Shown piece after piece: positions 2,801 through 57,594 of a stretch of 64,000 bases of DNA. The first letter of the stretch is position 1; each line of letters opens with the position of its first letter. The notes beneath the pieces were generated by a model. It saw nothing but the letters and a program-made list of their open reading frames with translations, was not told where the DNA came from and ran no database searches. Both the position numbers and the translations under genes were made by a program. The DNA is from Mauremys mutica (taxonomy: Eukaryota > Chordata > Testudines > Geoemydidae), in assembly GCF_020497125.1 (NCBI RefSeq), contig NC_059081.1:14541105-14605104 (forward strand), given 5' to 3'.

Positions 2801-5800
2801 ACCAAGAGGAGGTGCACTAATGGTGAGCAAATTGCATGATAGTACCTAAATATTTGTTTAGCTGCCATGTTAGAAAATGCTTATGGTTTCTAAGATGATG
2901 TGGTTTTATCCTTGTGTGGTCAAGAGGAGATTTTTTTTTTTTTTTAGTGTTCAGGAGCAGTTGTTTGTGGCTGAAGTTGCAATCTCTCATTATATTGTTG
3001 CATGGATTAATTCTAGATTGCGCCAAGCTCCTTGGAATTATAAAACGGTGTTCAGCACAATGCTGTGAGGTGGTTATGGGGATATTTGTGGTCATAGTCC
3101 CCGTGCCTGGTTAAAATAGCAATCCTCTGCAGGTGTATGAGTGTCTCGCTGTCTCATACATGCACACATTGAACAACCCCAGTGGTGACATAACAGAATT
3201 ATTGCTCCTTAGTTTTATTCTTCCACAGTTTCTCCTGCATTTGGAGTAAATTATAGATGTATTCAGTTTTAATAGCCACTATATTTTTGAAAACCGTAAG
3301 TAATGGATATTAGAGGTGAGAGCCTTACCCTCTTGGGCCCTTTTCATGCTTCTCTGGCTTTTTTTATGTGGTCTAAAAAGACTTAAAATCCCCAGGTCAG
3401 GCTGTAAGAGATCCCTCCCCAGCTCAGACACAGTGGAAGACAGCAATAAGGTTGTCTTTTGAGGACCCCTTTAAAAGCCCTGGCGCAGGCGATATGCTAG
3501 AGATGGGGGCAGGAAGGGGAAGGCTTGTCAGGGGCGCTGATGCAGAGATTCTTGGCAGTACTTTCATTAAGGCTGCCATAACTTAGTTAGCCCTCTGGGC
3601 CTGTCAGTTATGATAATGGTTTCTCCAGCCTGGGAGCAGCCCAGGAGTGAAAAGGTGCAAAGGTGATGTAAAGCCATCCAACCCCCTTGCTCCTCCCTCT
3701 TGGGCTGAGAGGGAGGAGCACAGAATCTCACTGAAGGCATCTATGCCAGTTGCCAGCCCTGGTAATAATGGAAAAAACACAGTGACGCCTGTGCGTGCTC
3801 AGCAACTCCAACAATCAGGCCACTTTAAGTTAGATGCTTTAGTATAAATTTGAGTGTTTAACTTTAGGCATCCAATTTTATGAATTTTGGCTACAGTCTG
3901 TAACAACAACAACAACAAGCCCAGCAATAGGAGAGGACTGGCCTATCTCAGCACAAAACACAGCTGTCAACAAAATGGAATTGCTTCCTCCCCCACCCTG
4001 CCCCAAGCTCTCGAACTGTACGCATCTCAGCTGCTAAAATAGATAAGCCTCGCAGTATGACTTAATGGTCAACAAACTCAGGTTGCATTAGACCCAGGTA
4101 GCTCTCAGGGCTGGGAAATGTGACCCTAAATATTTTCACATGTCAGAGGCACACTGTGACTATAGAAAACATGGTCAGACTGTGTAAATAACCAGCTCTA
4201 TTCTTGTGAGTTACTTATTGTTGTGAAAATAGCCTTTATCTTTAGAATCAGTAGTTTGGTTTGCATAAGGTACAGGAGCATTTTAATATTGTACGATAGT
4301 ATGAGATCCAGATACTGGAGTGGTAATAATGGGGGTGATGGCATGGAGAGAACACAACCTATTGGAAGATACGAGAGGTTAGGGCTTCGTTGTTCTATTT
4401 CTGGCTCAGCCCTGAATCACTGTGACTTTTCAGAAGGACAGCCTCCCTGTTGTAAGTGCCATTTGCGGGAAGGGAAGAAGGACAGGAACAATAGTAAAAT
4501 TAAAGAGGAGCAGAGAGAGGGACTCGCTAGGCCTGAGCTAGGGGCATCTGTGAGAGAACTGACTGTACTTGGGAGGGGGGAAACTTGTGCTGAGGATGAG
4601 GAGAAGGCTTTTTGCAGACAGCCACCAGGAAGCCAGGCAACAATTGTGATCTGTGTTGAGAAGACTTCTGAAGTTTTGGTTAAGCATCTAAACATTTGGG
4701 GGCTTTTCTGAACCCTTTGAGGTCCCCCCCCATCACTCATTCATAGTGCTTAATGAGACACTAATGTTTGTTGTGCTTGTTGAGGGCCCACGCCTGACTG
4801 ATGAGAAAGCCAGACTGAGTGTTCTGAACATACCAAAAAACAAGCAAAGAATAATTATTACAGAGAACTCTTTGGAAGATCTGAAAAATGTGAGCTTTAG
4901 AAATGACTCTGCTGCAGCAGAGAATGGGAAAGAAAGTATGTAAGTGGCAGGTTTGAAAGCACTCAGACCCATTTTACTATGGAGAGATCCAACCAAGAGA
5001 TGCACAGACATTTAAAAAAAAATATTGCAGACATGTCTACCTTCTGGACAGTGTTCCCCCCCCCCCCCATACCCACAGTTGGAAGGAACTATTGGTAGCT
5101 ACTCACACCCAGTGTCACTATCCCCTTGTTGTCTTCATCTTGGAAGCAGATGAAGGTGGCGCTATTGGCAATGAAGAATGGCTGGCATCATAACATCTGT
5201 GAAAGCTGCAGGAAGGATTCCGTAGTGAGAGAGAGGGGTAATTTGAAACGCATGGATACTTTGTACAGAATCGGGCTCCTGATGGCTAGTGGATATTTGC
5301 TTAGTTTGCTTAGACAAATGTGCATAATCTTGATGGCTGAAATTCACTCCTGCAGGGGCCACCCAAGGCTTATGCACCACTTCAGTCTTCAAACTAGGGC
5401 TTGCTAGGCCCTGTGCTCTTCCTCTGCTAAGGGGCAAATTTTACCCATTGTGAATAAACGTTCCGACAGCGTCATACTTCTTATCGGTAATAAAGAGCTT
5501 CATGCCGGGTATTGATGTAAAAGGATGACAAGATATTGGTTTATGGACAGTGGAATCAGTAAATTTAATAAGTCTCTCCTGTAGTTAGTCAAACTAATTA
5601 ACACAAGGGCAGCATGAGCCAGCAGACTCTGGCACTGAGAACGCAGACTGAAAGAGCTATTAGCACGCGATTAAGAAGTTTATCATCAGAAGGCAGCCCT
5701 TGAAGTCCTAAGTATTTATATTTATTTCTGGCTGGATCTAGGCACATCCAGAGGTAATACATAATGTACTTCCCTAAGAGCACTGGGCTGTAGTGTAATG

Positions 5801-27740: not shown

Positions 27741-27905
27741 TAGTGAGACCTGATGCTTGAGTATTGAATTCTTGGGATTGGCAATATTGGTACCTGGATG
27801 TTGGGGACAGCGGACAGAGCAGCAGGATTTAGTCCTGTGCTACAGGAGTATTCTGTGCTGCCTTGCCAGATTCCCACCAGGCCCAGACATCCCATTTAGG
27901 AGCTG

Positions 27906-27978
27906 CATCTGAAGAAGTGGGGGTTTTTACCCACGAAATAAATCTGCTAGTCTTTAAGGTGCCATTGGACTCCTCGTT
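27906..27978 (-). mobile_element. 5'-truncated turtle tRNA-type SINE with 12-bp TSD
   Basis: On the plus strand: CATCTGAAGAAGTGGGGGTT, TTTACCCACGAAATAAATCT, GCTAGTCTTTAAGGTGCCAT, TGGACTCCTCGTT. This is the reverse of the SINE tail. ATTTAGGAGCTG flanks both sides exactly (27894-27905 and 27979-27990). The tRNA-like head is missing, as in a truncated LINE-mobilised insertion. Confidence 0.9.
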
Positions 27979-28072
27979 ATTTAGGAGCTGTTGGCTCTGC
28001 TAGTTGAACTACCCACTTTCCTGTTTTCCTTCCAACGTTTGAATCCAAATTACAGCTATTCCATTCACATAT

Positions 28073-29705: not shown

Positions 29706-30728
29706 ATGGAGCCCACTCACCTCTCCGCTGCAGTTTTGACCATTGTAAATACCATGCATATTATCCAGCAGTATGTGCAGTAACTGCAAAACCAGGCGAG
29801 GAAGCGACAACAACGCAATTACTATATTGATGAGGACATGGGCACAGACATTCCTAGAAGCACGGCATGTGGCAATTGGGAGATCATGGTGGCATTGGGC
29901 CAGGTTCATTCCGTGGAATGCTGATTCTGGGCCTGGGAAACAAGCACAAACTGGTGGGACCACATAGTGTTGCAGGTCTGGGATGATTCCCAGTGGCTGC
30001 GAAACGTTTTGTATGTGTAGGGCCACTTTCATGGAACTTTGTGATTTGCTGTCTCCTGCCCTGAAGTGAAAAGACACCAAAATGAGAGCAGCCCTCACAG
30101 TTGAGAAGCGAGTGGCCATAGCACTGTGGAAGCTTGCAACGCCTGACAGCTCCCGGTCAGTTGGGAATCAGTTTGGAGTGGACAAATCTACTGTGGGGGC
30201 TGCTGTGCTGCAAGAGGCCAATGCAATCATTGAGCAGCTGCTATCAAGGGTTGTGACTTTGGGAAATGTGCAGACCATTGTGGATGGCTTTAATGCGCTG
30301 GGGTTCCCTAACTGTGGTGGAGCGATAGAAGGAACGCATATCCCTATCTTGGCCCTGGCACACCAGGGCGGCCAGTACGTAAATCACAAGGGATACTTTT
30401 CCATGGTGCTGCAAGCACTGGTGGATCACAAGGGATGTTTCACTGACATCAATGTGGGATGGCCGGGAAAGGTACTTTTGGAGGTTTGAAAGCACGCTGG
30501 TGCAGTTTACTAACTCGGTTAGATCTTAGCACAACCAACATTCCAATTGTAATTGCTGCTTGTTGTGTGCTCCACAATATCTGTGATAGTAAGGGGGAGA
30601 CATTTATGGTGGGGTGGGAGGTTGAGGCAACTTGCCTGGTGGCCAATTTCGCACAGCCAGACAACAGGGTGATTAGAAGAGTGCAGCAGGGTGCACTGCG
30701 CATCAGAGAAGCTTTTAAAGTTTCATGA
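29706..30728 (+). pseudogene. Harbinger (HARBI1-like) transposase pseudogene
   Basis: The intact protein would be a DDE nuclease that cuts and joins transposon ends. The first part (from ATG at 29706) has stops and frameshifts but retains QVWDDSQWLRN and, from 30082, MRAALTVEKRVAIALWKLAT, QFGVDKSTVGAAVL and FPNCGGAIEGTHIPIL. The last motif normally carries the first catalytic Asp (GAIDGTHI-like); here it is Glu. VDHKGCFTDINVGWPGK follows, with the second-Asp region. The frame then jumps at about 30475: a second frame (30459-30728) resumes at GTFGGLKARWCSLLTRLDL and AACCVLHNICDSKGE, the C-terminal region. The segment expected between them (HDARVF-like onward) is missing, and the usual Glu before FGRLKARW is not seen. 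This is a dead copy. Confidence 0.9.
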
Positions 30729-32575: not shown

Positions 32576-32867
32576 TCACTTATGGCTATCTCTTGTCTTC
32601 TCAGGCTTCTAGTAGACAAACATCCTCATCAGGAAAAGCACCATAATTACTGTGGCAATGGTGTTCATGATCAGCAGACACTCCTGGGTCAAGTGGCCCT
32701 GGTGACTGAATAATCTAACTCTTCAATGTGGGACCTTTGGGACAAGATTTGGGCACACTGGCAGGGCTTGCACTGCCACTGCTTGTTCCGTCCCTGCTCT
32801 GGGGAATAAGATCTATGCACACCTATATTTTTGTGGGTGCAAATATTAGTGGGACAGTACAATGTAA

Positions 32868-32950
32868 AGTATCAGGGGGTAGCCGTGTTAGTCTGTATCC
32901 ACAAAAACAAAAAGGAGTCCGGTGTGTTAGTCTTTAAGGTGCCACCAGAC
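32868..32950 (+). mobile_element. Turtle SINE with internal inversion
   Basis: The plus-strand head (GGGGGTAGCCGTGTTAGTCT, GTATCCACAAAAACAAAAAG, GAGTCCGGTG) is followed at 32925 by TGTTAGTCTTTAAGGTGCCA, the reverse complement of what should come next (GGTGGCACCTTAAAGACTAACA in the family). A normal tail is absent. The flanks AGTACAATGT (32856-32865) and ACATTGTACT (32951-32960) are a 10-bp inverted match rather than a direct TSD. Confidence 0.8.
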
Positions 32951-33765
32951 ACATTGTACTAAAACAAGGAAAGACATCGAGTTTCCTGATTGCATCCACA
33001 AATTGGTGATTTTGATATCTATAAAGCCTCAATTGCAGATGTAGTTTTGTGCCCAGGGTTAAGTCTCTCTATGCACTAACCAAAAATGAGGCCAGTCTCT
33101 AAAAACCTATAAAGGTTTTTAACTTTAAAAGGAAAAAGATATTGTGATGGGTATACTCTGATCTTTCCCCTTTGACTGAGAGTCACATCATGGCTGGCCT
33201 GTTACCTCCATATGATATCCTGTCATTTGCATTAAACATGTCCAAAACTGAACTCTCTTTTTCCCCATTAAATGATCTCCTACTTCTTCGCTGACAACTC
33301 CACTAGCCTCCCATTCATTCATACGCCACTTATTTTTGACTCCTCCAAGTTTGTCTCCTCTCATCCAAATCATGCCACTTCTCCTTCTGTTACCATAAAT
33401 CACCTTTCACTCTGTTCCCAGTGGTCTATTTCATCTATTGCTTCTTTGCCACCCATGGGGGTTCATGACTTGCTCCAATCCAGTTAATTTATCATGCTAT
33501 TGCTAAATTAATCTGCCTTGCTTACTGCTCCATCCTCTGGTTCCTTCAGGCTGACTTTGTTTCATTCTGCATCAAGTTCAAACTCAAGGCTCTTCAATGA
33601 TGCCATCTCCTCTCCCCTTGCATGCTATCTGCCAGATACTGAGAACCCTTCATTTCCTTTCCCCACTTGAAAATGTATAGCTGGAAAAGCTTTGTTTCTT
33701 CATTACACAAAGGAACCTCACTCCCTTCCTTACAGTCTATCCTCAAAACTACCTCCTGAAAGCTA

Positions 33766-33900
33766 GATTTCAGTGGTAGCCATGTTAATCTGTATCAGCA
33801 AAAAAACCGAGGAGTCCTTGTGGAACCTTAGAGGCTATGCCCAAATAACCTTGTTAGTCTATAAGATGCCCCAAGGACTCCTCATTTCCCCCCGCCCCCC
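33766..33900 (+). mobile_element. Turtle SINE with fold-back arms
   Basis: The plus-strand head (GTGGTAGCCATGTTAATCTG, then CGAGGAGTCCTTGTGGAACC, TTAGAGGCT) is followed by TTGTTAGTCTATAAGATGCC and CCAAGGACTCCTCATTT, a reverse-complement copy of the same segment (33804-33840 against 33851-33887, several mismatches). Flanks AAAGCTA (33759-33765 and 33901-33907) may be a short TSD. It is older than the 57.4-kb fold-back because the arms have diverged. Confidence 0.78.
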
Positions 33901-33907
33901 AAAGCTA

Positions 33908-38342: not shown

Positions 38343-38655
38343 CCGCTAATAGGGCCCCGGGCTGGGACACAGTGGAGTGGGTGGGCCTGTGTCCCCCCTG
38401 CCACCCCACTCACGGGTGGCAGTCTCCCCCTCTCCCCAGCGCTCAGACTTAGGCTTAACTGAACTACTGCTCAGCCCTGCCTAAGGGACTGAGCCCTCTG
38501 TGTGTTGTTGCCCGCCCTGAGCTAGGGCTTGGGCTCATAGACTTGAACTGCTGTTGCCCCGCCCTGACTGAGGGCCTGGGCTTCCACTAACTGGCTGGGT
38601 GCCTTGTGTTCAGCCCCTGCCAGAGGGTCTGAACCTGTGAACCTTCAGATATTGG

Positions 38656-38859
38656 GACTGATTGCTGTTACCCAAGCCCCTGCTTCAGAGGGCCTGGGTC
38701 TATTGAGACTGGTTGCTGTTACCCAAGCCCCTGCGCCAGAGGGCCTGGGTCTATTGAGTTTGGTTGCTGTTACCCAAGTCCCTGTTCCAGAGGGCCTGGG
38801 TTTATTAGGACTGATTGCTGTTACCCAAGCCCCTGCCCCAGAGGGCTAGGGCTTATCTG
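38656..38859 (+). repeat. Minisatellite, four 51-bp units
   Basis: Units begin GACTG(A/G)TTGCTGTTACCCAA or variants at 38656, 38707, 38758 and 38809, exactly 51 bp apart. Each includes CAGAGGGCCTGGG. More degenerate units extend upstream to about 38450. Confidence 0.92.
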
Positions 38860-38880
38860 AACTGCTGTTGCCCTGCCCTG

Positions 38881-39555
38881 CTCCTGAGGGCCAGGGCTTC
38901 TCTGAACTGCTGGTGCCCGGCCCTGCTCCAGAGGGCCAGGGCTTAGCTGAACTGTTGTTGCCCTGCCCTGCTCCAGAGGGCCAGGGCTTAGCTGAACTGT
39001 TGTTGCCCTGCCCTGCTCCAGAGGGCCGGGGCTTATTCGAACTGCTGTTGCCCGGCCCTGCTCCAGAGGGCCGGGGCTTATTCGAACTGCTGTTGCCCTG
39101 CCCTGCTCCTGAGGGCCAGGGCTTCTCTGAACTGCTGGTGCCCGGCCCTGCTCCAGAGGGCCAGGGCTTAGCTGAACTGTTGTTGCCCTGCCCTGCTCCA
39201 GAGGGCCAGGGCTTAGCTGAACTGTTGTTGCCCTGCCCTGCTCCAGAGGGCCGGGGCTTATTCGAACTGCTGTTGCCCTGCCCTGCTCCAGAGGGCCGGG
39301 GCTTATTCGAACTGCTGTTGCCCTGCCCTGCTCCAGAGGGCCGGGGCTTATTCGAACTGCTGTTGCCCTGCCCTGCTCCAGAGGGCCAGGGCTTAGCTGA
39401 ACTGTTGTTGCCCTGCCCTGCTCCAGAGGGCCAGGGCTTGTTCGAACCGCTGTTGCCCTGCCCTGCTCCAGAGGGCCGGGGCCTATTCGAACTGCTGTTG
39501 CCCTGCCCTGCTCCAGGGGGCCAGGGCTTATCTGGGCTACTGTTGCCCAGCCCCT
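38881..39555 (+). repeat. Minisatellite, fifteen 45-bp units with higher-order repeat
   Basis: Units of 45 bp start at CTCC(A/T)GAGGGCC, in perfect register from 38881 to 39511. A five-unit block (types by the codons after GAGGGC: CAGGGCTTC, CAGGGCTTA twice, CGGGGCTTA twice) recurs 225 bp later (38881 and 39106). The open frame 38868-39563 merely reads the array (15-residue period, APEGQGLAELLLPCP type). The other plus-strand frames contain a stop in units of the CTTAGCTGAAC type. Confidence 0.95.
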
Positions 39556-39734
39556 GCTCCTGAGGGCCTGGGCCTATTTGAACTGCTGTTGGCCAGCCCC
39601 TGCACCAGAGGGCCTGGCGGTCTAACGTTGTTCCCTGTGACTCCTAAAGGACCAGCAGAAGAAAAGAAGCGAGTCGGTGTGGCTCCCCTCCCGCCAGCCG
39701 GAGAGTTGAGCCCCGACCAACAGCTTACAGGCAC

Positions 39735-43661: not shown

Positions 43662-43673
43662 GTGATAGAACTG

Positions 43674-43821
43674 CCCCTGGAAATTTCCACTACATGCATC
43701 CGACGAAGTGGGTATTCACCCACGGACGCTCATGCTCCAAAACGTCTGTTAGTCTATCAGGTGCCACAGGACACTCTGCTGCTTTTACAGATCCAGACTA
43801 ACACGGCTACCCCTCTGATAC
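43674..43821 (-). mobile_element. Turtle tRNA-type SINE with perfect 12-bp TSD
   Basis: On the plus strand: CATGCATCCGACGAAGTGGG, TATTCACCCACGGACGCTCA, ACGTCTGTTAGTCTATCAGG, TGCCACAGGACACTCTGCTG, CAGATCCAGACTAACACGGC, TACCCCTCTGATAC. This is a nearly complete SINE in reverse, head at the right. GTGATAGAACTG flanks both sides exactly (43662-43673 and 43822-43833). It gives the normal, non-folded layout of the family. Confidence 0.95.
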
Positions 43822-43833
43822 GTGATAGAACTG

Positions 43834-56949: not shown

Positions 56950-57343
56950 TGATGTATAAGCTGAATTTTTTTTAATTAAAACAATATGTAGCAACACTAG
57001 TTATAGTGAAGGTGTCTATTTATAGATCCTTAATAACTTTCCAGAAAATAAAGCTCACTCCAGTCAGTAAATTTCTGTTTCTTATGTCTTTTCTCAGCTC
57101 AAAGATGATGATTTTTTTTAATTGGGGTGGGTGGGTGTGTGTGTGGAGTGGAGGGGGGAAGGCCTGGCTAAGATATGTTTGGCTGCTTTGAATTATTTGA
57201 GCATGAATACAGAAGGGTTTGTCATGCAATAATACTGATGCTCTTGATTTCAGTGGGCTTTAGATGCGGCTTTGGGTGAAGTTACCCAGCTGTCTGTCAG
57301 TGGACATGTATCGGTATATCCTTTGGTTTCCTATGTGAAATGA

Positions 57344-57582
57344 ACATGAGTACTTGTGGCACCTTGGAGACTAACAAATTTATTTGATCATAAGCTTTCG
57401 TGGGCTAAAACCCACTTCATCAGATGCATGCAGTGGAAAATACACTGCATGCATCTGATGAAGTGGGTTTTAGCCCACGAAAGCTTATGATCAAATAAAT
57501 TTGTTAGTCTCCAAGGTGCCACAAGTACTCATGTTCTTTTTGCAGATACAGACTAACATGGGTGTTACTCTGAAACCGTCAT
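57344..57582 (-). mobile_element. Fold-back turtle SINE: perfect 94-bp inverted arms inside one TSD pair
   Basis: The minus-strand SINE has its head at the right (57537-57580: GCAGATACAGACTAACATGG, TGTTACTCTGAAACC) and runs leftward through the body. At 57443 it reaches a 7-nt spacer and then continues as an exact reverse complement of the same body: 57342-57435 and 57443-57536 are identical inverted arms, 94 of 94. TATGTGAAATGA lies on both sides of the whole structure (57332-57343 and 57583-57594), so it behaves as one insertion. Lack of any arm difference means it is recent, kept identical by conversion, or an assembly artefact. Confidence 0.93.
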
Positions 57583-57594
57583 TATGTGAAATGA

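Follow-up and report, generated by a model that had tools for sequence, protein, structure and literature searches.

The integration of Penelope-like elements (PLEs) is still poorly understood (PMC11167929). In a typical animal PLE, an inverted pseudo-LTR (pLTR) on the 5' side, shorter than the direct pLTRs, completes the element, and a head-to-head layout is typical of several PLE families, while the Pen1 family is described mostly with direct pLTRs only (PMC3846280). The figures given in that source are an inverted pLTR 37 bp shorter than the full one, an optional 31-bp tail on one of them, and a target-site duplication (TSD) of 9 bp; its authors attribute the palindromes at PLE junctions to self-priming. 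A second system that bears on the present locus is PAc, the Poseidon element of Anolis carolinensis, in which the AUG of the ORF begins at the last A of the hammerhead CUGAGGA, reverse transcription starts most often 111-118 nt into the ORF, and a tail of 30-40 bp corresponds to the stretch between two start sites (PMC11167929). In vitro, both strands were cleaved and extended in the PAc system, and the choice of start site was not apparently strand-dependent (PMC11167929). The hammerheads of PLEs are of the minimal type I, without helix III or tertiary loop contacts (PMC7761336). A third point of comparison is offered by the 5'-inverted L1 insertions explained by twin priming, in which two cDNAs from both nicked strands are joined, with microhomology at the junction and a TSD; of the two priming ends, one anneals at the 3' terminus of the RNA and its partner inside that same molecule (PMC2912911).

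The window considered here, the whole stretch of 64,000 nucleotides of Mauremys mutica DNA, contains near 57.3 kb an insert that is probably a short, 5'-truncated PLE insertion with head-to-head pLTRs, one of them tailed, primed from both nicked strands. The preferred reading is that of an ordinary inserted PLE end. Two inverted arms, 57342-57435 and 57443-57536, are perfect over 94 bp each and are separated by a 7-nt spacer (GAAAATA, 57436-57442), and ungapped extension of the pair reaches 98 nt at 99% identity. The flanking TSD is short and lies in an AT-rich target, with a G+C of 3 in 12 (by count), as in PLE insertions. The runner-up among perfect inverted repeats in the window (seeds of 14 exact bases, spacers of at most 200 nt) measures 16 bp, and of the 63,737 pairs of 12-mers spaced 251 nt apart the TSD pair alone matches at all 12 positions, four others matching at 11, so that chance is excluded for the arms and the TSD. 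Both structures had been described in an earlier, sequence-only reading and are confirmed. As one TSD surrounds both arms, the single insertion event proposed there is supported as well, and the two inverted arms agree with its statement that the body is present twice, head-on. The long hairpin that it expected has its counterpart in a strong computed fold of the insert as single-stranded DNA (-128.4 kcal/mol, z = -31.8 over 200 shuffles).

The two arms are of unequal length, the right arm carrying a 46-nt extension. Within the left arm, the 2 bp farthest out (GA, 57342-57343) are part of the TSD, which leaves 92 bp of inserted perfect arm and a microhomology of 2 nt. The spacer is better matched to the family when read as an extension of the left, antisense arm: in the sense direction TATTTTCCAC of that arm agrees with AAATTTCCAC of the 43.7-kb copy at 8 of 10 positions, against 6 of 10 if the spacer is assigned to the right arm (by eye).

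Features of the 57.3-kb insert and of related copies in the window, named according to the preferred reading as a probable PLE
Feature	Position	Strand	Remarks
Left TSD TATGTGAAATGA	57332-57343	.	final GA also compatible with the element (microhomology of 2 nt)
Right TSD TATGTGAAATGA	57583-57594	.	12/12 match to left TSD
Tailless antisense pLTR arm on the 5' side	57344-57442	-	includes the spacer
Sense pLTR arm with tail	57443-57582	+	from family alignment
PLE 'tail' ('SINE head' of the sequence-only reading)	57537-57582	+	family end CTCTGAAACC at 57577, then GTCAT
Minimal type I hammerhead-like motif	57452-57489	+	scan of 64 kb, both strands
Hammerhead-like motif in antisense arm	57389-57426	-	motif scan; sequence same as + copy
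Single arm without tail	27894-27990	+	TSDs ATTTAGGAGCTG 27894-27905 and 27979-27990, 12/12; marks no-tail 3' end
Head-to-head copy	32866-32951	.	tail arm 32866-32922 (-); no-tail arm from ~32923 (+)
Head-to-head copy	33766-33883	.	tail arm 33766-33837 (-); no-tail arm to 33883 (+)
Single arm with tail	43662-43833	+	TSDs GTGATAGAACTG 43662-43673 and 43822-43833, 12/12; decayed hammerhead-like motif

Each arm contains a hammerhead-like motif, GCATCTGATGAAGTGGGTTTTAGCCCACGAAAGCTTATG, whose parts follow the type I order (stem I, CUGANGA, stem II, GAAA, UH, stem I) and comprise stem I CAU/AUG, CUGAUGA, A, stem II GUGGGU/GCCCAC, GAAA, GC and UU^AUG. A scan of both strands of the 64 kb returned two sites, one per arm, each with a gap of 1 nt, a stem II of 6 bp, a linker of 2 nt and a stem I of 3 bp, which is the geometry of PAc; the stretch of PAc submitted to the same scan yielded one site. 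The tolerances of the scan were chosen to admit the published PAc hammerhead, after both motifs had been seen. Simulation under a first-order Markov model gave 3 hits per 200 windows, a rate that serves as a guide rather than a p-value, since the tolerances were set post hoc and the two arms are one sequence. Among the other copies, those at 43.7 kb and 27.9 kb were missed even with the relaxed core CYGANGA, their GAAA or linker being mutated or deleted, and the 57.3-kb locus is therefore the only one to pass; the 43.7-kb copy keeps a stem I of 4 bp (GCAT/ATGC) and stem II and has lost GAAA (by eye). Rfam called no hammerhead in either copy of the motif. In the minimum-energy RNA fold of the sense arm the motif is absent, and this fold is no better than those of shuffles (z -0.49), which counts against a stable ribozyme fold by itself. 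In view of the fold and of the silence of Rfam, the claim is limited to a motif: the arms appear, from their sequence, to carry a hammerhead motif of the PLE type, and an active ribozyme is not claimed. The motif also sets the strand. By this measure the right arm is sense (+) and the supposed SINE head is a 3' tail, which reverses the orientation under which the extra copy had been placed on the side of the SINE's 3' end.

BLAST and a profile search of the window gave eight matches at five loci, the recovery of the BLAST-found copies by the profile being by construction, as the profile was built from them. A weak BLAST match at 3895-3919 (25 nt, 84%, E 0.008) stands outside the five-locus count and is absent from the profile list. 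Three of the five loci are head-to-head and two have a single arm; every head-to-head locus (3/3) has exactly one arm with the tail and one without. The extent of duplication varies. The 32.9-kb copy has an arm overlap of only about 7 nt, and in the 33.8-kb copy the inverted stretches measure 29 nt, at 83%, separated by 17 nt. The latter is flanked by AAAGCTA at 33759-33765 and 33901-33907 (7/7), and a C-rich filler of 17 nt, ATTTCCCCCCGCCCCCC (33884-33900), lies between its no-tail arm and the right AAAGCTA. Around the 32.9-kb insert there is a perfect 10-bp inverted repeat, AGTACAATGT/ACATTGTACT (32856-32865/32951-32960), or alternatively a direct repeat of 8 bp in which one position differs (by eye), so the TSD is ambiguous there. 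The upstream arm ends at 27906, 43674, 57442 and 57443 lie 3, 26, 19 and 12 nt upstream of the hammerhead-like core; four ends so near the core, at the three loci reaching it, are unlike random 5' truncation.

The opposite ends of the arms fall into two groups. In the second block of the alignment, arms without the tail end at columns 21 (32.9 kb), 27 (33.8 kb), 28 (57.3 kb) and 30 (27.9 kb), a spread of at most 10 columns with three of the four within 4, and arms with the tail end at columns 70 to 77, a spread of at most 8. Each type of end is also represented by a single-arm copy that a 12/12 TSD encloses, and in the alignment the no-tail end of the 57.3-kb insert lies about 2 columns or less from the 3' end of the 27.9-kb copy, which has one arm only. 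Counting the last A of CTGATGA as position 1, the tail end lies at 117-122 in the 57.3-kb insert, the value for the 43.7-kb copy being 116; the no-tail arm of the insert stops at 74-76, 41-48 nt short of the tail end. This spacing is near but above the published 30-40, and the tail is here counted as an optional tail of the PLE kind. The position of the tail end, at 117-122, agrees with the 111-118 of PAc; matching that figure to the outer site is our own choice, the PAc text consulted being silent on whether it refers to the inner or the outer site, and the agreement is suggestive only. In the 43.7-kb copy the tail is connected with the body of the pLTR by a 9-nt inverted pair, TGTTAGTCT/AGACTAACA (43747-43755/43795-43803), which recurs at 57502-57510/57550-57558 (by eye). 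The no-tail end falls within the loop of this pair, and the stem-loop could be the family counterpart of the start-site stem-loop of PAc.

Features shared with PLEs include the hammerhead-like motif in the arm, the inverted, head-to-head arrangement at three of the five loci, the tail on one arm and the short TSD in an AT-rich target. Like the insert, Pen2a_Av and its relatives in Adineta vaga have a shorter inverted pLTR on the 5' side, head-to-head with a direct one, a short optional tail on one inverted pLTR, a TSD (of 9-10 bp) and junction palindromes; they differ in having an ORF and a second direct pLTR, whereas the insert would represent the end only, without the ORF (PMC3846280). With PAc it shares the geometry of the hammerhead, a similar distance from hammerhead to reverse-transcription start and a tail lying between two start sites, a likeness at the level of motif and geometry. 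The PAc hammerhead coincides in part with the beginning of a long ORF (PMC11167929), whereas here the same ATG frame stops after 10 codons (by eye). No PLE ORF (telomerase-like RT, GIY-YIG nuclease) was recognised by eye among the 106 stop-to-stop ORFs of at least 80 aa in the window, of which up to 150 residues each were read, and the four run on Pfam showed neither an RT nor a GIY-YIG domain. Truncated PLE copies need not carry the ORF.

A pattern of the hammerhead stretch had no matches in viral and genome contig collections, where reptile DNA is not expected, strings of the family did not occur in the paper texts in which they were sought, and no description of the repeat as a PLE was found among the papers searched. 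As of 2018 Penelope had been unreported from any amniote (PMC5753468), yet PAc is an element of a lizard. Repbase holds a protein named Penelope-2_CPB (PMC9004415), CPB standing for the painted turtle (PMC5753468), and the repeat may well have been catalogued already.

How would a PLE give rise to such a palindrome? In the sequence of events proposed here, the nuclease of the element would make staggered nicks 12 bp apart, and the 3' end of the bottom strand would prime an antisense cDNA at the outer start site on the RNA, thereby including the tail. The 3' end of the top strand, ending in AAATGA and with its GA pairing with UC of the RNA at what is now the left junction, would prime another antisense cDNA, which would start about 41-48 nt inside the first and lack the tail. 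Whether made on two RNAs or on a single RNA used twice, the two cDNAs would stop at almost identical positions a short way upstream of the hammerhead-like motif, and they would then be joined 3' to 3' through about 2 nt of microhomology, with a CA possibly common to both at the centre. The spacer would represent the left cDNA extended 7 nt further upstream. These steps would yield precisely the product observed. This scheme resembles the twin priming of L1 and departs from it in that both start sites recur between loci and that one stretch is copied twice.

The principal alternative accepts a PLE and derives the palindrome from snap-back synthesis, in which a single cDNA folds near the 5' end of its template and copies itself. 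Identical arms over 94 bp around a 7-nt loop are what such an event would leave, there is a possible 2-nt priming pair at the turn (by eye), and self-priming is the explanation preferred in print for the palindromes of rotifer PLEs (PMC3846280). Self-copying would, however, have to stop near one and the same no-tail site in all three head-to-head loci, a site at which the single-arm copy at 27.9 kb has its 3' end as well, which points to reverse transcription beginning there rather than to self-copying that broke off at random; moreover, the overlap of about 7 nt at 32.9 kb leaves almost nothing to be self-copied. We regard this alternative as distinctly unlikely, and the snap-back origin suggested in the sequence-only reading is disfavoured on the same ground. 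The match between the outer ends of the insert and the 3' ends of single-arm copies nearby favours two-strand priming at two RNA start sites over snap-back. Since the head-to-head form is common here (3/5) and typical of several PLE families, no exceptional event needs to be invoked, although five loci are too few to settle the mechanism for the family as a whole.

That reading had taken the insert for a fold-back SINE, made by template switching or snap-back synthesis, and in being short, TSD-flanked and repeated within the window the insert does resemble one, tRNA-derived SINEs being likewise short dispersed retroposons flanked by a TSD. The sequence features tested as defining such SINEs are all absent: the insert contains on neither strand the simple consensuses of box A and box B or a run of at least six A, Rfam searches of it with E up to 10 gave no tRNA, 5S or 7SL, and ARAGORN (with bacterial settings) found no tRNA in the window. 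In one Rfam run the insert drew 16 matches, every one below its gathering score, to microRNA hairpin families, a plastid UTR hairpin, two snoRNAs and ST7-OT4_3; of two further runs one returned ST7-OT4_3 alone and the other nothing, and these families were rejected as matches to any long hairpin or to chance. The behaviour of the family also differs from that of an Alu-type SINE, for among human- and chimpanzee-specific insertions 5' inversion was recorded in 1 of 5,554 Alu and 639 of 2,068 L1 elements (PMC2912911), against three of five loci here. The SINE identity is not supported, and the fold-back SINE is a highly improbable reading. The case cautions that a PLE end can be mistaken for a SINE, and that what is called a 'fold-back SINE' in reptiles may be the footprint of a PLE.

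A DNA transposon of the fold-back or MITE type, bounded by long terminal inverted repeats, would also be expected to show a TSD and long inverted arms. Such an origin is hardly tenable, given that the arms are unequal, with the 46-nt extension on one side, that two of the five loci are single-arm copies with TSDs of their own, that the arm overlap ranges from about 7 to 94 nt, and that the flanking repeats vary in length and sequence; symmetric terminal inverted repeats are not common to all five copies. The least credible reading is an assembly or library artefact from a chimeric fold-back read, for although perfect inverted repeats are a recognised form of artefact, here both arms lie within one TSD, they differ in length and stop at the family ends, and two diverged head-to-head copies occur elsewhere in the window.

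The asymmetry between an arm with and an arm without the tail provides a reusable test of two-strand priming. In young, perfect head-to-head insertions both cDNA starts and both cDNA ends are legible, and a genome-wide catalogue could for this reason separate two-strand priming from self-priming without a cell assay. One may go further and propose, tentatively and with considerable doubt, that two-strand priming of PLEs always pairs an outer with an inner start site, perhaps by way of a protein dimer that would keep each of the two RNAs (or start sites) in a state of its own. All three head-to-head loci fit such a rule, where a free choice at equal odds would be expected to do so one time in eight.

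Other features of the window include a pair of inverted arms of 100 nt at 19-118/329-428, 90% complementary and 210 nt apart, which is possibly a MITE-like element, and minisatellites with periods of 51 and 45 bp at 38650-39614, in which several frames are open. A DDE_Tnp_4 transposase remnant (Pfam), which we take to be of the Harbinger type, lies at 30070-30486.
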